A DNA stretch of 64,000 nucleotides from a virus, in the IMG/VR virus record IMGVR_UViG_3300042373_000871, positions 1 to 64,000 of that record; one strand, written 5' to 3'. A program made the position numbers and the translations under genes. The notes beneath the pieces were generated by a model. The model saw only the letters and a list, made by a program, of their open reading frames with translations, searched no databases and was not told the DNA's origin. Shown here one piece after another: positions 2,416-59,136 of this stretch (positions are counted from its first letter, which is position 1; each line of letters starts with the position of its first letter).

Positions 2416-3204
2416 TTAGGTATTTTTTACATAACTTAATCTAACAAGACCATCATTAGTTGTTGTTGTAGTTGTCGAATCCGCGTAATTAACATTCATT
2501 GGTTGTTGATTGGTTACTATAATTTCTTTAACAACCTCAACGGGTACTTCAACAATCTTCTCAACCTCAACTATTTTTTCAACTTCCTTAATTACTTCTA
2601 CCGGAACTTCAATTTCTTTGATTACCTCAACTATTTTTTCAACTTCCTTTATAACTTCTACCGGGACTTCAACAATTTTTTCAACTTCCTTAATGACTTC
2701 AACCTCAATGGTTTTAATTTCGTCGTCACTTTCTTTGGTTAATTCGTCATATTTTACAAAAAAGTGTAATGATGTCAATGAAATGATTGGAAGTAACCCT
2801 CCACCTAAAAACGCTAACCATCTTTTTTGAGATACAACGTCATTGATATCAGAACCTAACATTTCCCAAACAGGTGAAGTTAGTTCAACCCAAGATTTAA
2901 ATAAATCCCCGTTAACATCAATTTCTTTAAATGAAAAGAAGATATTACCAATCATTTGTATAAAGGTTACTAATCCGAACATAAACCATACACCACCTTT
3001 AATTCTGTTTGTTGCAGCAACCAATGCGGTCATAGCACCAACTTCAATAGCTATTGATAAGTATATAGCCCAACTAATTGGATTTGTTAAATCATACCAA
3101 GACACAACGTGAGATATTGAGATACCCGCAACTAAAAGTATCGGGATTAAGAACATTGCTCTTACCGGATGTTCTTTAACCCAACTTATTATTGACTTAA
3201 TCAT
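2416..3204 (-). CDS. Four-helix membrane protein with Val/Glu/Lys repeat tail
   Basis: 262 residues in two halves. The first about 150 residues hold four predicted membrane helices (roughly 13-33, 42-62, 72-92, 128-148). The C-terminal half is a charged repetitive tail built from units such as VEVPVEVIKEVEKI, ending in a short Thr-rich tail. The same repeat vocabulary is used by the unrelated protein at 10968-11591. The gene overlaps the small membrane protein upstream by 8 bases and precedes the amidase. Position before an endolysin would suit a holin-like or signal-sensing membrane protein, but four helices and a long tail are not typical of a simple holin. No family recognised. Confidence 0.7.
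   Translation of the reverse strand: MIKSIISWVKEHPVRAMFLIPILLVAGISISHVVSWYDLTNPISWAIYLSIAIEVGAMTALVAATNRIKGGVWFMFGLVTFIQMIGNIFFSFKEIDVNGDLFKSWVELTSPVWEMLGSDINDVVSQKRWLAFLGGGLLPIISLTSLHFFVKYDELTKESDDEIKTIEVEVIKEVEKIVEVPVEVIKEVEKIVEVIKEIEVPVEVIKEVEKIVEVEKIVEVPVEVVKEIIVTNQQPMNVNYADSTTTTTTNDGLVRLSYVKNT
2515..2710 (-). repeat. Val-Glu-Val-Pro/Ile-Lys-Glu-Val coding repeat
   Basis: Degenerate in-frame repeat inside the membrane protein gene. Units of about 8 to 15 residues such as VEVPVEVIKEVEKIVEV recur with mostly synonymous variation. It is read on the minus strand; the opposite strand gives long spurious open frames. Confidence 0.85.
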
Positions 3205-3469: not shown

Positions 3470-3502
3470 AATTTTTGTATTAGTTTTATCATAAAAGTAA
3501 AA

Positions 3503-3530
3503 AACCTTCTATTATAATAAATAGAAGGTT
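3503..3530 (-). terminator. Rho-independent terminator after sigma-factor gene
   Basis: Perfect 11-bp stem (AACCTTCTATT at 3503-3513 pairing with 3520-3530) with a 6-base loop, followed on the minus strand by a T-rich run. It lies 9 bases beyond the stop of the sigma gene and closes the 7337-3540 block. Confidence 0.85.
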
Positions 3531-3539
3531 CTAACATTT

Positions 3540-4340
3540 TTACATATAATCAAACAATACCGAGCAGTCATTCCTTAATTTTCTTAAGGCCTTTTCCTTT
3601 ATTTGTCTAACCCGTTCTTTAGTCAGATTAAAATCACCACCAATATCTTCGAGGGTTCTCTGTGTTCCGGTTAACCCGAAATAGTCCTCAACAATAACTT
3701 TTTCACGTTCATCTAAAACATTTAATAAAGAGATTAATTTTGCTTTTAATAAATCTTTACCATTAAATGCTTCATCAGGCATATCAGCACCTTCATTTTT
3801 AATAATATCAACAAGAGTATCACCATCTTCATTGATATTCATATCTAAATCAATCATTGAAGGTAGATTTTGGAACTTATCATCTAACTTACCACCATTA
3901 GATTCAATTTCTTTTTTAGCTCTATGTAAATCCTGTACCACATTAACTGGTAGTCGGATTGTACGGGCGTTGTCATTCAACGATTGGAGGATTGATTGTT
4001 TAACCCACCACACCGCATAGGAAATAAAACGTAAATTCTTGGACCAATCAAAATTGTTGATGGCTTTCATTAAACCTAAATTACCTTCGGCAATTAAATC
4101 AGGGAAATCCAATCCTTGATTTTGATATTGTTTTGCCACCGTAATAACAAAACGTAAATTACCTTCTAATAATTCTTTATTAATCGCCTTAATCTCATTC
4201 TCTGTTAGAGTACCCGAGGTAATCAATTTAGATAACTCACGTTCTCTTTCAGGGGTCATCACTTTAATCTTACGAATATCTTTTAGATATAATTGAATCT
4301 CTTCTTGATTAATTGGAATACCGGAATTTTTTTCTTTCAT
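3540..4340 (-). CDS. RpoD-like sigma-70 family RNA polymerase sigma factor
   Basis: 266 residues resembling the compact primary sigma factor of Bacteroidota. Region 1.2 is at about 11-40 (YLKDIRKI...PERERELS). Region 2 is at about 57-135, with core-binding and DNA-melting motifs LIAEGNLGLMKA, FDWSKNLRFISYAVWWVKQSI and TIRLPVNVV. Region 4 is at 205-258, ending with the helix-turn-helix RTLEDIGGDFNLTKERVRQI. Region 3 is shortened and diverged: the canonical region 3.0/3.1 helices are largely absent between about 136 and 165. T4-like phages normally use a very divergent late sigma (gp55), so a near-complete RpoD-type protein is unusual. It probably directs host RNA polymerase to phage promoters. 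It starts one base after the stop of the gene at 4342 and is followed by a terminator. Confidence 0.93.
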   Translation of the reverse strand: MKEKNSGIPINQEEIQLYLKDIRKIKVMTPERERELSKLITSGTLTENEIKAINKELLEGNLRFVITVAKQYQNQGLDFPDLIAEGNLGLMKAINNFDWSKNLRFISYAVWWVKQSILQSLNDNARTIRLPVNVVQDLHRAKKEIESNGGKLDDKFQNLPSMIDLDMNINEDGDTLVDIIKNEGADMPDEAFNGKDLLKAKLISLLNVLDEREKVIVEDYFGLTGTQRTLEDIGGDFNLTKERVRQIKEKALRKLRNDCSVLFDYM

Positions 4341-4341
4341 A

Positions 4342-4917
4342 TTAATTTGAGTATTTGTTTAAATATATTAATTCTTTTTCAGTTAGTGAATTTAATCCTT
4401 TTTCTTTAATCTTTTCTAATAATTCATCTAAAGATGGACTACGTTGTTTGTTTTTAATTTCATCAATGTCAGACCATTCATCTTCATCATATTCAAAATC
4501 AAAATTTTCAATGTTTAAATTAAAAGTATCTCGGATTTTGTCTTGTATCATTTTTCGCACCTCAAATTCATTTGGTTCTGAATTGTTAGATTTTCCTGAC
4601 ATAAAGTCACTAATACCATCATTAAAAAGATGTTTAGATATTTTTTCAGGTAATCCATATGACAATTTGTCAGATGTGTAAGGTAATAAAACATACATAA
4701 TATCGCCAACACCTAAAACCATATCAACATAATCTTTTACATCCTCATAGGAATCTAATGTTGAGATTGTGAACACAGATGACTCCGGTCCGAAATAAAA
4801 GTTAAGATTGGGTGTGTCGGAAATAACACATAATTCTTCCGCGATTTGTTCTGTAAATTCTTTTGGGTTGTCATTTTTTGCAAAGACAAATAAAATGTAT
4901 TTGGTTAAACCATCCAT
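4342..4917 (-). CDS. Hypothetical protein with Bacteroidota-type C-terminal motif
   Basis: 191 residues. The N-terminal part looks like an alpha/beta domain (KYILFVFAKND, NLNFYFGPESSVFTIST, DIMYVLLPYTSDKLSYGLP). A linker rich in Asp/Glu follows. The last 30 residues (PSLDELLEKIKEKGLNSLTE and onward) resemble a short motif at the C-terminus of some Bacteroidota membrane proteins, which I associate with DUF6576; this is from memory and needs a profile search. The gene ends one base before the sigma gene start and has its own promoter-like sequence upstream (4948-4978). A role linked to the sigma factor, such as an anti-sigma or co-regulator, is suggested only by position. Confidence 0.65.
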   Translation of the reverse strand: MDGLTKYILFVFAKNDNPKEFTEQIAEELCVISDTPNLNFYFGPESSVFTISTLDSYEDVKDYVDMVLGVGDIMYVLLPYTSDKLSYGLPEKISKHLFNDGISDFMSGKSNNSEPNEFEVRKMIQDKIRDTFNLNIENFDFEYDEDEWSDIDEIKNKQRSPSLDELLEKIKEKGLNSLTEKELIYLNKYSN

Positions 4918-4947: not shown

Positions 4948-4978
4948 CAAAAGTACTAAACTCTTTTGGAATAACCAA
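4948..4978 (-). promoter_or_regulatory. Bacteroidota-type promoter for the sigma-factor pair
   Basis: On the minus strand, TTG (4978-4976), a 20-base spacer, then TACTTTTG (4955-4948), which fits the flavobacterial consensus TTG-N17-23-TAnnTTTG. It lies about 30 bases before the start of the gene at 4342-4917, inside the end of the preceding gene, and could drive that gene plus the sigma factor. Confidence 0.5.
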
Positions 4979-5485: not shown

Positions 5486-6754
5486 TTAATTATCTAAATT
5501 TGTAAATGGTAAACTAGATAAAACTGAAGGAGTAATTGAAACTTTATTATTTGAACACATATTATTTTCTTTCATAATATTTCTAAACTCATTTGAGTTT
5601 AAAAAATTCACCGCGTTATCTAAATTTATATCAATATTATCTTTTAAAAATAAACCTATAATACCACCACCAAAAAATTCATTAACATTTCCTACCCAAA
5701 AAATATGAGTATCTCTAGTTTTCATAATACCATAAATTCTTTTTTTATTCGATTTCATTAAATTAAAATTACGGAGAGCACCATATTTCCACCAATTTTT
5801 TTCAGTAAAATTACTAATTTTTCTTTTAATTAATTTTTCTTTATGAGGTGTAAGATAATTTTTTACTTCTTCAGATAATTCACCAAAAACATCATAATTA
5901 TCCACAAAAAGATAATTAGAAACTTCCTTATTTGTACCAATGATTTGAATTATTGAATTATCCGGTAAATCAATATTATTATTTAGTTTAAATATTTTTT
6001 CCGCTCCGGTAACTAAACCAACTTTAACATCAAAAAAATCAGAAATTGTATTTCCTGTTCGGATTTCATTACAAAAAGAAATAGTATTATTATATACTAC
6101 TTTTTTATTTACAAATTTATCTAAACTATAATCATCCAATGTTTCATAATATTTAAAATCACCACTATAATTTTTAACATACCTAAAAATACATAAGGCA
6201 GGTACATCAGCATCATCAAATAATTTTTCTTCACCGCAATCAATGAAATGTGAAAAATTACCATTGTCTTTTAAAAATTCTCTCACAAATTTAGAACTCA
6301 CATTATATAACCATTCTTTCGGAACAATAAATATTAACTCCCCTCCATCAGATAATAAATTAACACAATACTTAATAAAAAAATAATATAAATTTCCATT
6401 ACCAGGAATTTTTTCCGGTAACAAATCAATAGTGTCTTGTTCAACATTTTTTAGTTTAACAAAAGGTGGGTTACCAACGATTGAATCAAATGTTCCACAA
6501 GTTTTTATAAAATTAAAAAAATTATCAACACTTATTTCAGATTTACATACTTTAGAATTAACCTTATCAACATCTAACTCCACTGATAAGACATTTCTAT
6601 TTAATTTTTTTTCAATCTCTAAAACAATATGACCCTCACCCGCAGATGGTTCCAATACACTACCATCATTTTTTATTAAACTAATTAACACATTTAAAAC
6701 TCTATTTTTTGTTGTGAAAAATTGTCCCCTACTTTTTTTTAAATTATTAACCAT
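5486..6754 (-). CDS. N6-adenine DNA methyltransferase (type II, gamma-like)
   Basis: 422 residues. Motif X is GQFFTT at 10-15, the S-adenosylmethionine motif I is VLEPSAGEGHIV at 33-44, and catalytic motif IV is NPPFVK at 95-100. This order (X-I-IV at the N-terminus, long C-terminal target-recognition region) is typical of gamma-class N6-adenine methyltransferases such as those of Eco57I/HincII-like systems. The C-terminal about 200 residues, including NWWKYGALRN and FFGGGIIGLFL, resemble a TaqI-type recognition domain. The gene starts inside the end of the upstream gene (8-base overlap), suggesting a restriction-modification pair. The whole cassette is more AT-rich than its neighbours, consistent with recent acquisition. 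The enzyme would methylate phage DNA and protect it from host or self-encoded restriction. Confidence 0.9.
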   Translation of the reverse strand: MVNNLKKSRGQFFTTKNRVLNVLISLIKNDGSVLEPSAGEGHIVLEIEKKLNRNVLSVELDVDKVNSKVCKSEISVDNFFNFIKTCGTFDSIVGNPPFVKLKNVEQDTIDLLPEKIPGNGNLYYFFIKYCVNLLSDGGELIFIVPKEWLYNVSSKFVREFLKDNGNFSHFIDCGEEKLFDDADVPALCIFRYVKNYSGDFKYYETLDDYSLDKFVNKKVVYNNTISFCNEIRTGNTISDFFDVKVGLVTGAEKIFKLNNNIDLPDNSIIQIIGTNKEVSNYLFVDNYDVFGELSEEVKNYLTPHKEKLIKRKISNFTEKNWWKYGALRNFNLMKSNKKRIYGIMKTRDTHIFWVGNVNEFFGGGIIGLFLKDNIDINLDNAVNFLNSNEFRNIMKENNMCSNNKVSITPSVLSSLPFTNLDN

Positions 6755-10621: not shown

Positions 10622-10981
10622 TTAATTTTTTGTTGGTCTATTTTCTTCAAACCATTCTACCATCGAGTTGAATGACCATACAAACCCTGACGCTATCAAC
10701 CCATCAAAGAACCATCCAATCCAAGTCGGTGTTCCAATCAAAGATGTTGATGGGGAATAATAAGCAATTCCAAAGAAAAAACCAACCCAAGTTGATGTAC
10801 ACATCATACAAGATAGTAAATCCCCAATGAATTTAGCCAACCCATTGAAAGGTAATACTGATTCACCCCACGCTTTTATAAAATTTCTTAATCCCTGAAA
10901 TATTGACCCATAGACCAATATGTTTGACATTCCGTATGCCGCTAGTAACCAAATTAATAATACCATATTACATTGTTTCAT
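10622..10981 (-). CDS. Small membrane protein with CxxCTSTWVG motif (DUF1360-like)
   Basis: 119 residues with three probable membrane segments: 5-27, a central one with CMMCTSTWVGFFFGIAYY near 58-75, and GWFFDGLIASGFVWSF near 88-103. The CxxCTSxWVG motif is the signature of DUF1360-type small membrane proteins found in phages and bacteria; their role is not known. Two cysteines at the membrane face could bind metal. It overlaps the upstream gene by 14 bases, so the two are translated from the same message. Confidence 0.7.
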   Translation of the reverse strand: MKQCNMVLLIWLLAAYGMSNILVYGSIFQGLRNFIKAWGESVLPFNGLAKFIGDLLSCMMCTSTWVGFFFGIAYYSPSTSLIGTPTWIGWFFDGLIASGFVWSFNSMVEWFEENRPTKN

Positions 10982-11591
10982 TTAAGTTAGAACCTTTCAA
11001 ATATACAGCTTTTTGATTAACCGCAATAGATTCTAATTGTTTATTTTTATTTTCAAGTTCTTCAATCTTTGTGTTTTTCAAAGATAGTTCTTTTTTAAGT
11101 GTCTGTAAAGTTTCTTGAAGAAGTAATACTTTATCGTTTGGTTTTTCAATCTCAACAATCTTTTCTACTTCAACTATCTTCTCAACCTCAACTATTTTCT
11201 CCACAATTATTGGTTCAGGTTTGCCCCCAATTTCATCTATAATTGGGACAGGAACTTCCACTCTTACTTCTTTAATAACTTCTCTATCAACATATTTGAT
11301 AACCTCAACTTCTTTAATAGTTTCAACGGGAACTTCCTTGACTATTTCTTTAATAACTTCTTTAACCACCTCAACTTCTTTAATAACTTCAACCGGTACT
11401 TCCACCCGTATTTCTTTTATTACTTCAATCTCCATTACTTTTTCTGAATCACCACCTAGTAACCCATATTTGTTAATGTTATACCCTTCGGTAAAACATT
11501 TTGATATGAAATTATCTACATCCTCAATATTGTTTAACTTACAATATTCTTGAACTGACTTTAATTGACTAGTTGTTAGTTTGACTTCCAC
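10968..11591 (-). CDS. Protein with Val/Glu/Lys repeats and C-terminal coiled coil
   Basis: 207 residues. The first about 45 residues form a small helical domain (TSQLKSVQEYCKLNNIEDVD). Residues about 50-150 are a low-complexity run of units such as VEVPVEVIKEVEVVKEVIKE with interspersed Pro, then KIVEVEKIVEVEKIVEIEK. The C-terminus (about 155-195) is a coiled coil (LQTLKKELSLKNTKIEELEN). The same repeat occurs at the end of the membrane protein at 2416-3204. The gene overlaps gp47 by 23 bases and the small membrane protein by 14. No function known; the repeat may be an extended spacer. Confidence 0.75.
   Translation of the reverse strand: MEVKLTTSQLKSVQEYCKLNNIEDVDNFISKCFTEGYNINKYGLLGGDSEKVMEIEVIKEIRVEVPVEVIKEVEVVKEVIKEIVKEVPVETIKEVEVIKYVDREVIKEVRVEVPVPIIDEIGGKPEPIIVEKIVEVEKIVEVEKIVEIEKPNDKVLLLQETLQTLKKELSLKNTKIEELENKNKQLESIAVNQKAVYLKGSNLNETM
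11140..11436 (-). repeat. Second Val/Glu/Lys-Pro coding repeat
   Basis: Degenerate in-frame repeat of VEVPVEVIKEV-like and VEKIVE units inside the gene at 10968-11591. It resembles the repeat at 2515-2710 in composition and unit type, although the host proteins otherwise differ. Confidence 0.85.
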
Positions 11592-18315: not shown

Positions 18316-18323
18316 TATTTATA
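18316..18323 (+). promoter_or_regulatory. TATTTATA box before giant fibre gene
   Basis: Exact TATTTATA on the coding strand in the 30-base gap, ending 17 bases before the fibre ATG. It is one of several copies placed just upstream of structural genes in this window. Confidence 0.4.
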
Positions 18324-18340
18324 ATATAAAACAAAAACCA

Positions 18341-21300
18341 ATGATTTTAACTCAAAGAACATATTCACCATCAGGGTTTACAACAAGTCAAACATTAATT
18401 CACATTGTTGATACTAATAACCCGACTCAAAATCCTGCAGGTTCATCATATAAATCAACAATCGATGAAGCAATTAGTGGTTCACCATTTGTTGTAATTG
18501 TAAGTGGTACAGGTGTTAACTCATCAATTAGAAGAGATGTTAATAATCTTGCATCAGGAGATAATTCCGGTGCTTTAGGTGGATATTCAAACTCAGCAAC
18601 TACAAACTATTCAATGGTTGTTGGTGGACGACAAAATGTAGTTAGTGGAGGAACACATTCGTTTATTGGAGGTGGTCGTTGTAATACGGTATCAAATAAT
18701 GATTCAACTATAAGTGGTGGTTTTTGTAATAGTGTTTCAGGTGGTACATCAACAATTGGTGGTGGTCTTTATAATAGTATTTTTGTGGGTGTTGGTAAAA
18801 ATGTAACACGAAGTTCTACAATTGCTGGAGGTTATTGTAATATTATTTGCAATAATTCAATAGGAAGTACAATTGGTGGTGGTAGTAAGAATACCTTATC
18901 AGATAATTATTCTTTTATTGGTGGGGGACTTTGTAATACCTCATGCGGTGGTTCAACCGTAGGTGGTGGTCAAGAAAATCAAGCATTAGGAGACAATTCA
19001 TTTATTGGTGGTGGTATATTAAACTCATCAACAAATATAACCTCAACAATAGTTGGTGGTCAACAAAATACCGCATCAGGAAACAATTCATTTATTGGTG
19101 GTGGTATTTCAAACTCAGCAACAACAGATTCTTCAGTTGTAGTTGGGGGGTCTAAAAACATAATTAGTGGTGGGACAACATCATTCATTGGTGGGGGTGA
19201 TTATAACAGAATATCAGGAAATACTTCAACAATAATCGGTGGTTGTTGTAATGTTGTTATTGGGCCAAGAAATACAATTGGTGGTGGTGGATATAATTTA
19301 GCATGTGTTATTGGTCCAGGAGCAAATAGTGGTGATGCAACTATTGCCGGTGGTTATTGCAACTATGCCTTAGCGAATAACTCAACTGTTGGTGGTGGAG
19401 CGAATAACAAATCTTATTGTGACAGTTCAACCATTGGTGGTGGAATGCAAAATACTGTTTGTGGAGATAAATCAACAATTACTGGAGGTAGATGTAATAT
19501 TACCTGTAGTCCTTATTCATTCATTGGTGGTGGAAAATCAAATATTGTGTATACAGTATATGGTACGATTGGTGGTGGTTGTTGTAATATCTCATCAGGA
19601 GCTACATCATTTATTGGTGGTGGTCGTCGAAATACCGCATCAGGAAATTGTTCAACAATTGGTGGTGGTTATCTTAACTGTTCAGTAGGTGGTTGTTCAA
19701 CAGTTGGGGGAGGTTGTTTTAATACCTCATGTTGTAATTACTCAACAATTGCCGGTGGTAGATTTAATTTTATTTGTGGAACATCTTCTTCAATAGGTGG
19801 TGGGTTTAACAATCGTATTACTAGTAATACACTGAACCCATCAAATTCAGTAATTGCCGGTGGTATTAGTAATACAATATGTAACGAATTTGGATTTATT
19901 GGTGGTGGTAGAAGTAATATGATATCGGGTACAACAGGCGTTGGTGAAGATGGTGTTATTGGTGGAGGATTAAATAATAAAACATATGGAGTTAGAGCAG
20001 CAATTTTAGGTGGATGTGGAAACTGTTTAGGTCAATGTTCTTATGGTGGTGGTATTGTAAGTGGTAATAATAATAGAGTCGTAGAAGACTTTGGTGTTAT
20101 TGGAGGCGGAAGCGTTAATGTAACATTTGCTAGTCATTCAATGATTGGTGGTGGAGCATTAAACTTTATAGGTAATTCTCAAGTAATATCATCATATTCG
20201 GCAAACACTTGTACAATACAATTGTACGGGAATCAATTATCATCATTTAGTGTAAACGACCTTTTATTAACATATGACAATTTTGGATGTAGTAGAAACG
20301 TAGTTATTACAGGTCAAACATATTCATCACCATATACAAACTTATATGTTACTGGAGCAACTGCCGCAATGGGAGCGTTCCCTTCGTCACAACCACTTTT
20401 ACGAAATTTTACAACAAGTTCAGGTGGATTTTGTCAAGGATTTATTGGGGGAGGTATTGGTAATACCGTATCAGGTGCCACTTCAAGTATTGTTGGTGGT
20501 AGTCAAAATACTATAACAAGTACCCATTCATTTATTGGTGGTGGTAGAGGTAATATATCATCCGGTAATTATTCATCAATATTAGGTGGTTCGTCTAATA
20601 ATACTAGTGGTTGCACATGTGCTATGATTGTTGGTAGTAATATAACTGCAAATAGAAATTGTACAACATTTGTTAACGACATGATTATTGACTCTATGAG
20701 TACTTGTAGTGGTTGTTATGTTGGAGTTAGCACAAATGGACTTTTAGTACCTATTGCCGGTGGTGGAGGTGGTGGTTCATCAGCCGTAATTATAACCGGA
20801 ACAGGTGTTAACTCATCTGTTAGATGTGGTGTTAGTAATCTTGCATCGGGAAATTGTAGTGCAGTATTAGGTGGGTCATCAAACTCGGGAACAACAGATT
20901 TTTCAGTTGTAGTTGGGGGAAATCAAAACATTATTAGTGGAGGAACTCATTCATTTATTGGTGGTGGTTGTGGTAATACTGTTTCTGGTAGTACTTCAAC
21001 AATTGGTGGTGGTTATAAAAACACAGCATCGGGGGCATGTTCATTTATTGGTGGTGGTAGTAGTAATATTGCTTCAGGTCCTCATTCAACAATTGGTGGG
21101 GGTTTTAGTAACGAATCTAATGGTAATTATTCAACAATAGCCGGTGGTAGAAATAATACAGTCTCTTGTAATTATACATTTATTGGGGGAGGTATAAATA
21201 ATAACGCTTTAGACTATTGTACAACAATTGGTGGTGGTGTTGGTAATATAGTATCTGGTACCTCATCAACAATTGGTGGTGGTAATCAAAACACAGTTTC

Positions 21301-23515
21301 AGGTAATTTTTCATTCATTGGTGGTGGAAGTTTAAATGTCGCCACAGGGCAAACTTCAACAATTGCCGGAGGTAGAAATAATACATCAGGAGGAATAGAT
21401 TCAACAATATCCGGTGGTAGAAATAATACCGCGTCAGGAAATTGTTCATTTGTTGGAGGTGGGTGTAAGAACATAGCATCGTCTCAGTATTCAACAGTTG
21501 GTGGTGGACAATCTAACACATCTTCATGTTTTAGGTCAACAATTGCCGGTGGACTAAGTAACACATCTTCAGGAGCTTATTCATTTATTGGCGCTGGATG
21601 TTGTAATATAGCATCAGGTAATACCTCAACAATTGCCGGAGGTTGTAAAAATGTGACATCAGCATTATCATTTGTCGGTGGTGGTACTACTAATTGTGCT
21701 ATCGGTAATTGTTCGTCAATTGTTGGTGGTTCAGGAAATACAGTATCAAGTGTGTTTTCAACAATTGGTGGTGGTAAATCTAATTATATATCTTCATATT
21801 ATACTAAATATTCATCTATAGTTGGGGGACAATCTAATTGTGTTGGATACGGTTATCAGTCATTTATTGGTGGTGGTTGTTGTAACATAGTTTATGGTAC
21901 TAGTTCCGCTATCATAGGAGGCCGTAAAAACACCGCATGTGGTAGTTATTCAATCATATCAAATGGATTTTGTAATTGTGCACGAAGTGGTTCATTTGTT
22001 GGTACAGGTGTCTGTCATCTCTCATGTAAGTCATCATTTGTTGGTGGTGGTTGTAAAAACACCTCTTCCGAATATTTTTCATTTGTAGGTGGAGGTACAG
22101 GAAACACTTCAAGTAATTGTTTTTCATTTGTGGGTGGTGGATATTGTAACACCGCATCAGGATGTACTTCATTTATTGGTGGTGGTAGTTGTAATTTATC
22201 TTCAGGTTGTTGGTCAACTGTTGGTGGTGGTTTTAAAAACACGGCATCATGTTGTTTTTCAACAATAGGTGGTGGTAATGGTAATACGGCATCAGGTTTA
22301 CGTTCTTTTGTAGGTAGTGGTGGTGGTAACATATCATCATCAACTTCAACTGTTGTTGGTGGTGGTAATTGTAATACGGCATCAGGAGTTTATTCATTTA
22401 TTGGTGGTGGTTCAAATAATACATCATCAGGTTCTACTTCAACAATTGCCGGTGGTAGATGTAATACATCAGGTGGAATAGATTCAACAATAGGTGGTGG
22501 TAGATGTAATACGTTATTAGGAGAATATTCATTTATTGGTGGAGGTCGAGAGAATAATTCAGTATGTAGAGATTCTTCTATTGGTGGTGGACGAGGTAAT
22601 TGTGCTAACGGTTATCGTTCAACAATTGCCGGTGGTGGTTTTAACACAACACAAGGTACTAACTCATTTATTGGTGGTGGTAGAAGTAATATCGCCTCAG
22701 GTGTTGATTCAACAATAGGTGGTGGGTTTTGTAACACCGCATCAGGGTGTACCTCAGTTATTGGTGGTGGTATAAGTAATATCGTTTCAGGATTTTTTTC
22801 AACAATAGGTGGTGGATGGGATAATACTGTAAATGGAAATCGTGCAACGATTGCCGGAGGTTTTTGTAATTCAGCAAGTGATAATTATTCAACTGTTGGG
22901 GGTGGTAGAGAAAATACCGCATCGGGGGCAAATTCAACAATTGGTGGTGGTCAACTAAATGTCGCATCTGGAGCATCTTCAACAGTAACGGGAGGTTTTC
23001 TTAATAGAGCGTATGGAGAAAATTCATCTATTATTGGCGGTAATAGAGCTTGTGCTCCTCGTTTTGGACAAAGGTCGTTTGCAAATGGAACTTGGACACC
23101 ATTTACCGGTACAGGTGAGACACAACAAATAGATTTATTAGGTAGAAATACAACAACAGGTGTAACAACTGTTAACATTTTTTTAGATGGTTCATCACAA
23201 AGAATATCAGTTTTAAACGAAACCGCAATGTTTGTTACTATTAATATTGCAGGAATTACTAGTGGTGGTACATCAGCAGCTCACTATATAAGAAAAGTTG
23301 CCATTAAAAATGTAGGTGGAACAACTTCATTAATTGGTGCGAGTCCGGTATCAACCATAGGGACAGATGTTGAAGATAACGCTTTGTATGACGTTACAAT
23401 ATCTGCGGATGATACAAATGATGCTTTAGATATACAAGTAACCGGTGCTGTTGGAGATACTATGAGATGGACAGTCCATATTAGTGGAGTTGAAATAAAA
23501 TATTCTTGGACTTAA
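18341..23515 (+). CDS. Giant YadA-head-like tail fibre
   Basis: 1724 residues, nearly all built from 14-15 residue repeats of the form IGGGxxNxASGxxST, the trimeric beta-roll repeat of YadA-type adhesin heads. The order is: a short N-terminal domain (1-50), a lead module (from about 52), repeats, a non-repeat insert at about 610-697, more repeats, and an exit segment at about 770-807 (NRNCTTFVNDMIIDS, then a Gly linker). The lead module then appears a second time (from about 816) with a second long repeat array, ending in a C-terminal beta domain (about 1577-1724, with FLDGSSQRIS and ADDTNDALDIQVTG). The C-terminal domain resembles the receptor or trimerisation tip of other phage fibres. Many repeats carry Cys at fixed positions. 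It is likely a trimeric fibre of extreme length that binds the host surface. Confidence 0.9.
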   Translation: MILTQRTYSPSGFTTSQTLIHIVDTNNPTQNPAGSSYKSTIDEAISGSPFVVIVSGTGVNSSIRRDVNNLASGDNSGALGGYSNSATTNYSMVVGGRQNVVSGGTHSFIGGGRCNTVSNNDSTISGGFCNSVSGGTSTIGGGLYNSIFVGVGKNVTRSSTIAGGYCNIICNNSIGSTIGGGSKNTLSDNYSFIGGGLCNTSCGGSTVGGGQENQALGDNSFIGGGILNSSTNITSTIVGGQQNTASGNNSFIGGGISNSATTDSSVVVGGSKNIISGGTTSFIGGGDYNRISGNTSTIIGGCCNVVIGPRNTIGGGGYNLACVIGPGANSGDATIAGGYCNYALANNSTVGGGANNKSYCDSSTIGGGMQNTVCGDKSTITGGRCNITCSPYSFIGGGKSNIVYTVYGTIGGGCCNISSGATSFIGGGRRNTASGNCSTIGGGYLNCSVGGCSTVGGGCFNTSCCNYSTIAGGRFNFICGTSSSIGGGFNNRITSNTLNPSNSVIAGGISNTICNEFGFIGGGRSNMISGTTGVGEDGVIGGGLNNKTYGVRAAILGGCGNCLGQCSYGGGIVSGNNNRVVEDFGVIGGGSVNVTFASHSMIGGGALNFIGNSQVISSYSANTCTIQLYGNQLSSFSVNDLLLTYDNFGCSRNVVITGQTYSSPYTNLYVTGATAAMGAFPSSQPLLRNFTTSSGGFCQGFIGGGIGNTVSGATSSIVGGSQNTITSTHSFIGGGRGNISSGNYSSILGGSSNNTSGCTCAMIVGSNITANRNCTTFVNDMIIDSMSTCSGCYVGVSTNGLLVPIAGGGGGGSSAVIITGTGVNSSVRCGVSNLASGNCSAVLGGSSNSGTTDFSVVVGGNQNIISGGTHSFIGGGCGNTVSGSTSTIGGGYKNTASGACSFIGGGSSNIASGPHSTIGGGFSNESNGNYSTIAGGRNNTVSCNYTFIGGGINNNALDYCTTIGGGVGNIVSGTSSTIGGGNQNTVSGNFSFIGGGSLNVATGQTSTIAGGRNNTSGGIDSTISGGRNNTASGNCSFVGGGCKNIASSQYSTVGGGQSNTSSCFRSTIAGGLSNTSSGAYSFIGAGCCNIASGNTSTIAGGCKNVTSALSFVGGGTTNCAIGNCSSIVGGSGNTVSSVFSTIGGGKSNYISSYYTKYSSIVGGQSNCVGYGYQSFIGGGCCNIVYGTSSAIIGGRKNTACGSYSIISNGFCNCARSGSFVGTGVCHLSCKSSFVGGGCKNTSSEYFSFVGGGTGNTSSNCFSFVGGGYCNTASGCTSFIGGGSCNLSSGCWSTVGGGFKNTASCCFSTIGGGNGNTASGLRSFVGSGGGNISSSTSTVVGGGNCNTASGVYSFIGGGSNNTSSGSTSTIAGGRCNTSGGIDSTIGGGRCNTLLGEYSFIGGGRENNSVCRDSSIGGGRGNCANGYRSTIAGGGFNTTQGTNSFIGGGRSNIASGVDSTIGGGFCNTASGCTSVIGGGISNIVSGFFSTIGGGWDNTVNGNRATIAGGFCNSASDNYSTVGGGRENTASGANSTIGGGQLNVASGASSTVTGGFLNRAYGENSSIIGGNRACAPRFGQRSFANGTWTPFTGTGETQQIDLLGRNTTTGVTTVNIFLDGSSQRISVLNETAMFVTINIAGITSGGTSAAHYIRKVAIKNVGGTTSLIGASPVSTIGTDVEDNALYDVTISADDTNDALDIQVTGAVGDTMRWTVHISGVEIKYSWT
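18491..18675 (+). repeat. Lead module copy 1 (direct repeat with 20785-20970)
   Basis: Encodes SGTGVNSSIRRDVNNLASG and on to SGGTHSFIGGG. It matches the segment at 20785-20970 over about 60 codons, about 2.29 kb downstream in the same gene. The two copies differ mainly at third positions and a few residues, indicating an old internal duplication of half the fibre. Confidence 0.85.
18590..23040 (+). repeat. Array of about 42-45 bp coding repeats (IGGGxxNxxSG)
   Basis: Roughly 90 to 100 degenerate units, interrupted by the insert near 20170-20430 and the domain boundary near 20650-20790. At DNA level units read like tcaacaattggtggtggt followed by a variable part. Antisense and off-frame reading of this array produces many spurious open frames. 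Confidence 0.9.
20785..20970 (+). repeat. Lead module copy 2 (direct repeat with 18491-18675)
   Basis: Encodes TGTGVNSSVRCGVSNLASG and on to SGGTHSFIGGG. It restarts the fibre after the Gly-rich linker that ends the first half. Confidence 0.85.
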
Positions 23516-28068: not shown

Positions 28069-28076
28069 TATTTATA
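28069..28076 (+). promoter_or_regulatory. TATTTATA box 4 bases before 28081 gene
   Basis: Exact TATTTATA followed by TCAC and the ATG at 28081. If it is a -10 element, the transcript would be leaderless. Confidence 0.4.
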
Positions 28077-28080
28077 TCAC

Positions 28081-30570
28081 ATGGGATACATATTAAAAAA
28101 TACACAAGGTTTACTTAGCACAAGGTTAACCGATACCGCAAGGTTAAAACTATCACAAGGTAGTTTTAATATCTCTTATTTTCAAGTAGGTGATAGTGAG
28201 GTTTCTTACAATACATTAACAGGAACACCTTATAATCAATTCACAACAAATATTCTTGAACCCGCATTTAATGCTCAGAATTCAACTGCTGCACCTGAAA
28301 CAAACAAACAAAATGTTAAATACCCGTATTATGTTGATGGAATAACCGGTAACACATACGGAATTCCTTATATGGCATCAGTACCTCAAGCGGTTTATAA
28401 TAGAGCCGCTATGAGAGGATTTTTTACAGGTAATACAACAGCAACTACAATTAATTGGAGTGCGTTAACAAATAGCCAATACACAATTAACTCTAACTAT
28501 CTTGTAGATATGTCTACATTAACAGGTGGTAGTGTTATTCAATTAGTGTATTCAGGGTGTAATTCAAATATTGTAAGATTACCAATGATTGGTGATTTTG
28601 TTACAATATATTACGACGGTCAAGGTGAATACAATTGTTATTGTGACCCTAACCCAACACCTACACCAACTTCAACACCTACACCTACACCAACTTACGA
28701 GGCCAATCCAACTCCAACACCTACACCAACAATAACTAAGAGTGCTAACATATGTGACCAAGGTCCAACACCAACACCTTCTTCAACTTGTTGTACTACA
28801 CCTTTACCTCCAACTCCGACACCACCTGATTGTGAGATGTCAATGAGTAGTTGTTACCCAATATTAACTTATAAAATTATAGATATCTGTAATGGTTTAT
28901 ATACATTAGACAGACCAACACCTGACTTTTCAAACTTTTCAAGTGGATGTTTCGCTAGAGTATTAGTATACCCACCAAATATGACAACATTATACGATAG
29001 TATTACACCTAACTCACATTGGAATCAAAATGTTATTAATTTTGAATCTTTATGTAGTACGGATGAATCAGATGTTAAGATTTGGAATATGAATATTCCT
29101 TGGTCGGAAAATCCTGCTGGATTGTATGATTCATTTTATAAAGGTTATCAATATTTTGGTTCAGCGTCTTATTTAGGTAGTAAAGAATATTTTGGATATA
29201 TGTCAGATAGTGGACAAACCGATACAAGTGTTGTTTATTATTATAATTCATTTGATGAACAAGTTGTTGTTCAACCAAGTGAGCAAAAAGCTATTGCTAT
29301 TATTCACTATACTAATCAATCAATTGATTTCTTCTATGGTGAGAAATTTGCCTTTGAACCTTACGACTCTAATAACCCTTCAGATACTACAGGTGAAGCT
29401 CGTAACTTTAGATTACATTTGCCGTGGTTAATGTGGCATAAAAATCCTGAATGTTGTAAAGGTCAAACTTTTTGGGTTGACCCTCCAGGATTTGACTCAG
29501 ACACATTTCCTCAAATATTTAAAGACCAATATATTCTATCAACTAAAAATTTAGGTATGAATGACCCGGGTATTAGATATTATAATTTATGGGACACTAA
29601 TGTTAACGAGAGTACTGGTCTACCAAATAGAGTTGGTAAAGTATTCCCTGATTCACAAATTATCATTATTGATGATGAAGAGATTATTGCCGCAATGTCT
29701 TACAAGTCAAACCGTAACTGGACATTACCGGCACCTAAAGTTGGGTTAACTACACCAAACACTTGTGTTGTTGAAAATAATCAACCAACAGTTAATGGTA
29801 TATTAACTGCGGACACTGAATATATGTATGTAACTTATAGATTTAGTAATACCGATATTTTCACTAATTCATTACATTGTAATTATTATACTAAAATTCA
29901 AGGGCCAAACATTTCTTGTGGTAATTTAACCGAACAAAACGTTTCAATTAGATTTGGAGCTGAATTCCCTTGTTTAAACCAACCAACGTTAATTCCAACC
30001 ACAACGACAACAACGACAACAACAACGACTCTGTGTCCTTCCTGTGACTTAATTACAGGGTTTTATGCGGACACATTCCAAGTTATTTGTCAAAAAGTAA
30101 TTGGTACAGGTAGACCTAACCCGGATGATTGGAAAATCATTGATTTTACTTCACAAATAAGTGCAACTACTATCAATGGATATTTAACCGTAGATAGTTT
30201 AACAGGTACAACATTTACCATTACTGAAGAAAATTACGCAGCTGCTGATGATTACAATTTAAATGATTATATTCCATTAGTGTCAGGTAATACAACCACA
30301 CCTTCATTAAATTTTGGTGATGAATATTATTTCTATGGTTCATTAGAAACTGATATTGAAGCAACTATCTATGAAATGAAATATAAGATAAATCTTGGTC
30401 AAGCGGAGTTTCAATCGACCTCAAATCCTACATGGACTAAAGGAACAAGTTCATATATTACTGAAATTGGGCTTTACGATAACGAAATGAATCTTATGAT
30501 TGTATCAAAGCTACAATCTCCTGTGTTAAGACAAGGGATTCAACAGTTTTTGGTTAAATTTGATTTCTAA
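28081..30570 (+). CDS. Tail fibre/baseplate-attached appendage protein
   Basis: 829 residues. The N-terminus (MGYILKNTQGLLSTRLTDTA, then QGSFNISYFQVGDSEV) matches a segment I associate with tail-fibre or baseplate proteins of large Bacteroidota phages. The C-terminus carries YITEIGLYDNEMNLMIVSKL, the pattern of the DUF3751-type tail-fibre N-terminal domain. Between them lie a Pro-Thr linker (about 191-247) with Cys pairs, a large beta region, and a run of 11 Thr near 640-650. The two halves of a fibre attachment domain are therefore separated by a large insertion. It probably attaches to the baseplate or carries adaptors. Confidence 0.7.
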   Translation: MGYILKNTQGLLSTRLTDTARLKLSQGSFNISYFQVGDSEVSYNTLTGTPYNQFTTNILEPAFNAQNSTAAPETNKQNVKYPYYVDGITGNTYGIPYMASVPQAVYNRAAMRGFFTGNTTATTINWSALTNSQYTINSNYLVDMSTLTGGSVIQLVYSGCNSNIVRLPMIGDFVTIYYDGQGEYNCYCDPNPTPTPTSTPTPTPTYEANPTPTPTPTITKSANICDQGPTPTPSSTCCTTPLPPTPTPPDCEMSMSSCYPILTYKIIDICNGLYTLDRPTPDFSNFSSGCFARVLVYPPNMTTLYDSITPNSHWNQNVINFESLCSTDESDVKIWNMNIPWSENPAGLYDSFYKGYQYFGSASYLGSKEYFGYMSDSGQTDTSVVYYYNSFDEQVVVQPSEQKAIAIIHYTNQSIDFFYGEKFAFEPYDSNNPSDTTGEARNFRLHLPWLMWHKNPECCKGQTFWVDPPGFDSDTFPQIFKDQYILSTKNLGMNDPGIRYYNLWDTNVNESTGLPNRVGKVFPDSQIIIIDDEEIIAAMSYKSNRNWTLPAPKVGLTTPNTCVVENNQPTVNGILTADTEYMYVTYRFSNTDIFTNSLHCNYYTKIQGPNISCGNLTEQNVSIRFGAEFPCLNQPTLIPTTTTTTTTTTTLCPSCDLITGFYADTFQVICQKVIGTGRPNPDDWKIIDFTSQISATTINGYLTVDSLTGTTFTITEENYAAADDYNLNDYIPLVSGNTTTPSLNFGDEYYFYGSLETDIEATIYEMKYKINLGQAEFQSTSNPTWTKGTSSYITEIGLYDNEMNLMIVSKLQSPVLRQGIQQFLVKFDF

Positions 30571-49336: not shown

Positions 49337-49795
49337 TTAAATATTTAGGATTACAAAATCACTAGCGTTAAACACGTCATTATTTATTTGATAATCTATT
49401 TTTACTTTCGCAGTGTGTTCTTTAGTTCCAATACCCGGTACTCTAAAAACACGTGTATCGTATTGGTCAACATAAGTACCTTTATCTTCTTCACCATCTG
49501 ATGCCGCGGTGATACTTATGTTTTTAATTGTTATTCCCGGTATATATTCCTCAACAGCGTCCCTAATTTCAGCATCAATATCTGAAAATGTAGGACCATC
49601 TAATGGTTCAAAAATAAATTCATACAATCTTGTACCAAAATCGGGTAAAAAATATCTACTTCCTTTTCTAGTCAATAATAAATGTATTAAGTCCGTTCTT
49701 GTTTCTTGAGTACTATCTGTGGAAAGGTCTAAATACTTTCCATCATAAGAATCCCTAAAAGGGAAATTAATACCATATGTTTTTCCATCTGCCAT
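49337..49795 (-). CDS. 25: gp25-like baseplate wedge protein (GpW/Gp25 family)
   Basis: 152 residues from the ATG at 49795. A longer frame to 49858 would add 21 hydrophobic residues read from promoter-like DNA and is rejected. The family motif RKGSRYFLPDFGTRLYEFIF (about 44-63) plus EP and a final DFVILNI are visible. gp25 is a sheath-initiating wedge component related to type VI secretion TssE. TATTTATA boxes lie 3 and 30 bases upstream, which supports this start and suggests it heads the late baseplate operon. Confidence 0.92.
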   Translation of the reverse strand: MADGKTYGINFPFRDSYDGKYLDLSTDSTQETRTDLIHLLLTRKGSRYFLPDFGTRLYEFIFEPLDGPTFSDIDAEIRDAVEEYIPGITIKNISITAASDGEEDKGTYVDQYDTRVFRVPGIGTKEHTAKVKIDYQINNDVFNASDFVILNI

Positions 49796-49798
49796 ATC

Positions 49799-49833
49799 TA
49801 TAAATATAGTGTCGTAATTATTTCTTATAAATA
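49799..49833 (-). promoter_or_regulatory. Two TATTTATA boxes before gp25
   Basis: Exact copies at 49799-49806 and 49826-49833 on the minus strand, 3 and 30 bases before the gp25 ATG. The farther copy lies at normal promoter distance and the near one would be leaderless. They sit just after the nrdA terminator, where a new transcript should begin. Confidence 0.5.
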
Positions 49834-58892: not shown

Positions 58893-59117
58893 TTAACCGT
58901 TTAATAGTTGTTTTACACCTGTTAAAGTTTCAACTTGAATTTTTTTATTTTTGTTTAATGTGTTATCAACTCTTTCAATTAAACCATCTTTCATTCTGAT
59001 AGTATAACAATCTCCAGTGTCTAAATCACATACTTGTTTAGAACCATCCCCCAAATCTTTTTCGGTACTTCTGGTATTTTTACCTAAATAGTTGTCTAAT
59101 ATTAATTTTGTGTCCAT
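58893..59117 (-). CDS. Small hypothetical protein
   Basis: 74 residues: MDTKLILDNYLGKNTRSTEK then DGSKQVCDLDTGDCYTIRMK and a basic helical end. Two cysteines flank a DLDTGD turn. It lies 4 bases from the next gene and has a TATTTATA box 11 bases before the ATG. Not recognised. Confidence 0.65.
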   Translation of the reverse strand: MDTKLILDNYLGKNTRSTEKDLGDGSKQVCDLDTGDCYTIRMKDGLIERVDNTLNKNKKIQVETLTGVKQLLNG

Positions 59118-59128
59118 AATCTTTTATT

Positions 59129-59136
59129 TATAAATA
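59129..59136 (-). promoter_or_regulatory. TATTTATA box before 74-residue gene
   Basis: Exact TATTTATA on the minus strand, 11 bases before the ATG at 59117, within the 43-bp gap after the hub gene. Confidence 0.4.

Follow-up and report, generated by a model that had tools for sequence, protein, structure and literature searches.

An RpoD-like sigma factor without region 3.1 in a clade of large T4-like phages, and its predicted place beside a gp55-like protein

Sigma factors close to RpoD are already known as a kind in T4-type jumbo phages: according to the part of the source drawn on here, phages of group 2, which include phages of Bacteroidota, carry such factors, and these are thought to have been acquired from cells (PMC7824862). 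Neither a loss of region 3 nor promoter classes are described for them in that part of the source. The sigma factor reported here resembles the RpoD of Bacteroidota (sigma-ABfr type) in the absence of region 1.1, the presence of regions 1.2, 2 and 4, the Bacteroidota-type DNA-recognition residues and a nearly identical -35 helix. It differs in being encoded by a phage, in overall identity, in a region 3 that has lost the 3.1 helix-turn-helix and in a longer stretch between regions 1.2 and 2.1. A second point of reference is T4 gp55, a phage-encoded factor for the host core polymerase, as the present protein is presumed to be, and likewise situated in the neighbourhood of genes 46/47. Unlike the present protein, T4 gp55 has no region 4, carries a clamp-binding epitope at its C terminus and occupies another place in the sigma tree.

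The gene lies in a stretch of 64,000 nucleotides of viral DNA (the window), which belongs to IMG/VR record IMGVR_UViG_3300042373_000871. The whole record comprises 98,739 bases (98.7 kb) and is judged to be a fragment because relatives reach 322 kb. The carrier is a T4-like phage by its T4-type tail and recombination genes, which include those for sheath, tube and baseplate hub together with UvsW-type helicase, SbcC/SbcD-like (gp46/47), UvsX-like and DnaB-like proteins. The sigma locus consists of the following features.

3540-4340, minus strand: RpoD-like sigma factor of 266 amino acids with regions 1.2, 2, 3.0, part of 3.2 and 4, without the 3.1 helix-turn-helix (Pfam, PHROG, alignment, tree, dN/dS).
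4342-4917, minus strand: open reading frame of 191 amino acids in the same operon, with a C-terminal DUF6576 segment (Pfam, E 7.5e-8).
4948-4978, minus strand: putative early promoter, of host type, for the sigma operon, with a -33 TTG(G) at 4976-4978, 20 nt and a -7 element TACTTTTG at 4948-4955 (sequence, relatives, host consensus).
3501-3532, minus strand: intrinsic-terminator-like hairpin directly 3' of the sigma gene (sequence).

The sigma reading frame is intact and starts 1 nt past ORF 4342-4917. The sequence-only reading saw in ORF 4342-4917 a possible modulator of the sigma factor; the arrangement is conserved, a reading frame of 165-202 amino acids immediately preceding the sigma gene in all 79 loci of relatives that could be checked. 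In 79/79 of the relatives' loci TAnnTTTG precedes the operon, and in 68 it is accompanied by TTG at the -33 spacing, within a search window of 130 nt that is wider than the one used for the block counts given below. The sigma factor would thus appear to be made early in infection. The TATTTATT found within the stem-loop of the hairpin at 3501-3532 is not a promoter box. Also on the minus strand of the window are a 422-residue open reading frame near the sigma operon (5486-6754), which has an NPPF motif and is probably an adenine-type DNA methyltransferase, and two open reading frames with long VEVIKEVEKIVEVPVEVIKE runs (2416-3204 and 10968-11591), whose products are likely to be coiled or fibrous; open frames on the opposite strand mirror their VEVIKEVEKIVEVPVEVIKE repeat.

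The sequence-only reading of this DNA had proposed that regions 1.2, 2 and 4 are kept, and Pfam bears this out: Sigma70_r1_2 (E 2.8e-6, 27.6 bits), Sigma70_r2 (E 1.6e-16, 60.3 bits) and Sigma70_r4 (E 1.4e-14, 53.7 bits) all score above their cut-offs, and Sigma70_r3 gave no match in the same search. The protein also matches phrog_351 (RNA polymerase sigma factor; E 3.7e-53), and it is the only one with a Sigma70_r2 or Sigma70_r4 match among the proteins of the window's record. It is distinct from ECF (group 4) factors, which have regions 2 and 4 only, in possessing region 1.2 and the 3.0 helix. A second proposal, that much of region 3 had been lost, holds in part. Counted in aligned sequences from RLP, the landmark of region 3.0, to NEDG at the end of region 3.2, the phage protein is 22 residues shorter than Bacteroidota RpoD: the 3.1 helix-turn-helix is absent, and a short stretch stands in its place in all aligned relatives. 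Between regions 1.2 and 2.1, on the other hand, it is some 6 residues longer. The extended -10 helix of region 3.0 persists, with the R451 and H455 positions identical to the host in 80/80 phages and the E458 position occupied by Q in the phage sigma versus G in the host. So does the end of the 3.2 finger, which reads NEDGDTLVD in the phage and NEDGGTLMD in the host, the alignment at the 3.2 tip being ambiguous. An AlphaFold model of modest confidence shows a single helix (132-148) and then a low-confidence stretch up to region 4 (mean pLDDT 65.5), and a Foldseek search with this model returned SigA, RpoD and RpoS structures. The protein therefore has something less than the complete region 3 (3.0, 3.1 helix-turn-helix and 3.2) of an RpoD-type factor, and looks able to work like RpoD though not a complete one.

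Relatives of this sigma factor are encoded on at least 345 viral stretches in IMG/VR, on contigs of up to 322 kb. The best 80 of them are 79-100% identical to it across all 266 residues, and 75 of these 80 nearest relatives are exactly 266 residues long. Region 2 has a mean conservation of 0.96 among the phage sigma relatives, and dN/dS values of 0.03-0.11 against close relatives point to strong purifying selection on the gene. The nearest cellular sequences are RpoD proteins of Bacteroidota and related bacteria, at about 42% identity. In a maximum-likelihood tree, whose long branches make the finer placement unsure, the phage proteins form one clade (support 100/100) that joins Bacteroidota RpoD (100/99), and T4 gp55 and gp55-like proteins fall apart from it. 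Descent from Bacteroidota RpoD, and not from gp55, is what this topology argues for; the RpoD origin claimed in the sequence-only reading is thereby upheld, and the grouping with gp55-type factors that would have spoken against it was not seen. No close member occurs in named phage records, where all matches are below 40% identity. Matches of 34-40% in human-gut 'Bacteriophage sp.' records were discarded, as most of those examined are full-length bacterial-type rpoD. Four such loci from human faeces, L304-L307 (MT837335, MT839976, MT836790 and MT835471), look like bacterial contamination, and in L304 rpoD sits beside a dnaG-like reading frame. The huge phage LR756500.1 (462 kb) encodes four Sigma70_r2 proteins above the Pfam cut-off, together with a phrog_234 match (E 1.7e-12).

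Residues that read promoter DNA were compared in an alignment of 80 phage sigmas with 80 RpoD sequences, in E. coli numbering. All 80 phages have the same residues as host RpoD in the -11/-12 core (Y430, W433, W434 and Q437) and, in the -35 helix, at E585, R586, R588 and Q589; only R584K differs in that helix. The Bacteroidota-type F386, I428, S429, L440 and N455 are common to nearly all rows, phage and RpoD alike. Seven residues have been listed for the pocket that accommodates T-7, the L110, L/I111 and K426 positions among them (PMC7566282), and precisely these carry L110V, L/I111M and K426R in 80/80 phages. Q103K, G106R and A382G, which likewise concern the surroundings of -7 to -5, and F425L are further differences from host RpoD that all 80 phages share. 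With the -35 residues kept and those of the -7 pocket changed, reading of the -33 element is probably preserved, and reading at -7 to -5 may be altered.

Candidate promoters were surveyed in four genomes, the window's record and three of 304-322 kb, with genes taken from a simple caller. The Bacteroidota host consensus is TTTG/TAnnTTTG, with a -7 element T-12 A-11 n n T-8 T-7 T-6 G-5 (PMC6847099). One class of phage promoter, class E, follows it closely as TTG-N19/20-TAnnTTTG, most often in the form TATCTTTGT. The other, class L, is TATTTATA, which lies in sense orientation, usually 15-45 nt ahead of gene starts, with a preceding A and an A-rich downstream flank; no -33 element accompanies it in the four-genome scan. 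When the gene map is divided by eye into blocks, class E stands at 56/396 starts of the accessory block versus 1/189 of the structural block, and class L at 116/396 and 95/189. Among the genes with class E boxes are those for primase and DNA-binding proteins; those with class L boxes cover the portal, sheath, tube, head protease and baseplate, among others. From this distribution and these kinds of gene, class E is read as early and class L as late. The number of TATTTATA boxes in the window is not beyond chance (19 versus 16.4 expected). Within 12-60 nt before starts, sense boxes outnumber antisense ones significantly in G000 (12 versus 4) and in the three other genomes (43 versus 21, 53 versus 18 in G003, and 48 versus 22). 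The same strand comparison is not consistently significant for bare TAnnTTTG, and the case for class E hence lies in its -33 partner: where TTG at -33 is combined with TA at -12, TTTG follows at -8 to -5 in 52 instances versus 1.3 expected. A TTTA variant with a -33 TTG was considered as a third class and set aside as a probable overlap with TATATTTATA. A phage-specific early box was likewise not retained: TATCTTTGT is more uniform than the boxes of the Bacteroidota loci compared, where the following base is C in 29/45, and sample size and base composition bar a conclusion. The window contains these predicted late boxes, recognized by sequence and positioning.

18316-18323, plus strand: TATTTATA late box before 18341-23515; probably no target of the sigma factor.
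28069-28076, plus strand: TATTTATA late box before 28081-30570.
49799-49833, minus strand: two TATTTATA late boxes before 49337-49795.
59125-59136, minus strand: TATTTATA late box before 58893-59117.

A second sigma-like protein, of 249 amino acids, is encoded in all eight searched records above 215 kb (G001-G008) and also in G014; it was not found in shorter, probably partial records, including that of the window. It matches the gp55 profile phrog_234 weakly (E 3e-5 to 5e-3 in genome searches, 4.5e-4 with hmmscan) and the sigma70-ECF superfamily under the cut-off. Its AlphaFold model, again of modest confidence, found nothing below E 0.001 in a fold search of the PDB, several of the top matches being sigma factors. 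Since these profile, superfamily and fold matches are weak, the protein is termed only gp55-like and is a candidate late factor. Its gene is the last in a long late-block operon rich in sugar-modifying genes. The RpoD-like sigma factor, for its part, has no phrog_234 match among its PHROG matches, nor was one seen in G000 at E<=10, and it possesses the region 4 that gp55 family members lack. Its C-tail SxLFDYM bears only a loose resemblance to the SLDFLF/SLDFLY of T4. A clamp-binding function was considered for this tail and is not favoured: a similar tail is missing from the relatives' phage polymerases, and no gp45-type clamp was found in 12 records. The idea that the sigma factor replaces gp55, suggested by its position near 46/47, is also weakened by the separate gp55-like protein and by a gene order unlike that of T4.

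By tail sheath, the nearest named relatives are Microcystis phage Mel-JY01, huge phage LR756508 and Flavobacterium phage immuto. Each encodes the gp55-like protein, at E 1e-11 to 1e-15 with the A4 profile; a Sigma70_r2 protein above cut-off is lacking in all three, the single weak Sigma70_r2 match of LR756508 being its gp55-like gene. Positioned TATTTATA boxes are present in immuto (23 sense versus 6 antisense), where they precede the genes for sheath, hub and tape measure as well as the tail gene next to the sheath gene, and in Mel-JY01 (13 versus 1). They are absent from LR756508, so TATTTATA is not universal for the gp55-like family. On this comparison TATTTATA appears not to need the RpoD-like sigma. 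Because immuto and Mel-JY01 combine the box with the gp55-like protein and lack that sigma, the gp55-like protein is the likelier reader, and the earlier suggestion that the TATTTATA boxes are the target of the RpoD-like factor is probably wrong.

Some further observations concern these named phages. The immuto relative of the 249-residue protein (immuto26A_153, MW353175.1 78174-78872) is annotated as a hypothetical protein and is a candidate late sigma factor. Between 60 and 77 kb of the same genome lie some 20 almost identical units that resemble early promoters (AGTTGC-N-TATATTTAGGTATCAATAATTAAAAC), and TAnnTTTG before genes is almost absent. In Mel-JY01 (PP395634) several genes have Bacteroidota-type promoters, for example CTTGCAT...TATATTTGTA, and late genes have TATTTATA; its listed host is Microcystis elabens, but a member of the Bacteroidota present in that culture may be the true one.

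The explanation preferred here, to which a probability of roughly 0.5 is given, is that a captured RpoD, made early by the host enzyme, reads host-type bipartite promoters with a shifted preference at -7 to -5 and leaves TATTTATA to the gp55-like factor. A clade of T4-like phages of about 270-320 kb would have captured a Bacteroidota RpoD long ago, and the captured protein would then have lost the 3.1 helix-turn-helix. Produced early by the host holoenzyme, it would engage the core enzyme of the host by way of regions 2 and 4. Its retained DNA-reading residues suggest that it would recognize promoters with a -33 TTG and a -7 element like TAnnTTTG, with the preference altered at -7 to -5. It is predicted to be active on its own operon promoter, TTG-N20-TACTTTTG, and on a TATCTTTG promoter. 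It would in this way sustain the transcription of early or middle phage genes, strengthen that of its own operon and act as a competitor of host RpoD, the late TATTTATA promoters without a -33 element being served by the gp55-like factor. Several points count against this explanation: the early promoters in question ought to be readable by host RpoD alone; the remodelled -7 pocket may point to an unrecognised target; immuto and Mel-JY01 manage without the sigma factor using similar early boxes; and the gp55-like gene itself ends a late-block operon at whose start no clear host-type promoter was seen. The original notion of a near-complete housekeeping-type factor that hijacks the polymerase is plausible in so far as this sigma factor may be able to redirect host core enzyme to a different set of preferred promoters. 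It is not a substitute for a gp55-type factor, since a gp55-like protein accompanies it in 8/8 searched records above 215 kb.

Among the alternatives, the one that survives best, unlikely as it is, assigns the sigma factor no special role at phage promoters and has it mainly compete with or reprogramme host transcription, by displacing RpoD or shifting host promoters. Early and late promoters of a similar kind also occur in relatives without the sigma factor, which therefore does not seem indispensable for them, and its -7 pocket and region 1.2 are unlike those of the host; the DNA-binding residues of regions 2 and 4, however, are constrained beyond what a mere core-binding decoy would need. 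Next, and already doubtful, comes the view of the sequence-only reading that the RpoD-like protein is itself a late factor reading TATTTATA with no need for a -33 element. This view can draw on the small distance between TATTTATA and the host -7 element, with just two substitutions at conserved positions (T to A at -7, G to A at -5), on the changes in the -7 pocket and region 1.2 in 80/80 phages, on the early-type sigma operon in 79/79 loci and on the location of the gp55-like gene itself in the late block. It is opposed by immuto and Mel-JY01, which have positioned boxes and the gp55-like protein and no Sigma70_r2 protein, and by the retention of the -35 recognition helix in spite of late boxes that have no -33 element. 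More doubtful again is a two-sigma relay in which the captured RpoD, with its remodelled -7 pocket and region 1.2 and without 3.1, took over late initiation at the -35-less TATTTATA or shares it with the gp55-like factor, the RpoD-like protein acting early and the gp55-like one later. An undetected third promoter class, read perhaps with the help of ORF 4342-4917, is improbable: neither box is found at many of the gene starts that have a gap before them, and the conserved co-transcribed reading frame could be a partner, yet k-mer and bipartite scans of four genomes gave no convincing third motif.

Against the background of RpoD-close factors in T4-type jumbo phages, what is new is that region 3.1 is consistently missing, that residues around the -7 pocket have changed uniformly, that the operon is of early type and that the sigma factor coexists with a gp55-like factor. 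The clade is uncultured, and no description of its sigma factor was found in the open-access literature. A widespread group of uncultured phages of Bacteroidota thereby gains a transcription plan, with early promoters of host type, a late box lacking the -35 element and two proteins that resemble sigma factors. TATTTATA late boxes accompany the gp55-like factor also in phages without the RpoD-like sigma. Promoters of Bacteroidota are unlike those of E. coli, and this sigma factor represents a natural test of the role of region 3.1 and of the residues that set -7/-5 specificity in Bacteroidota.
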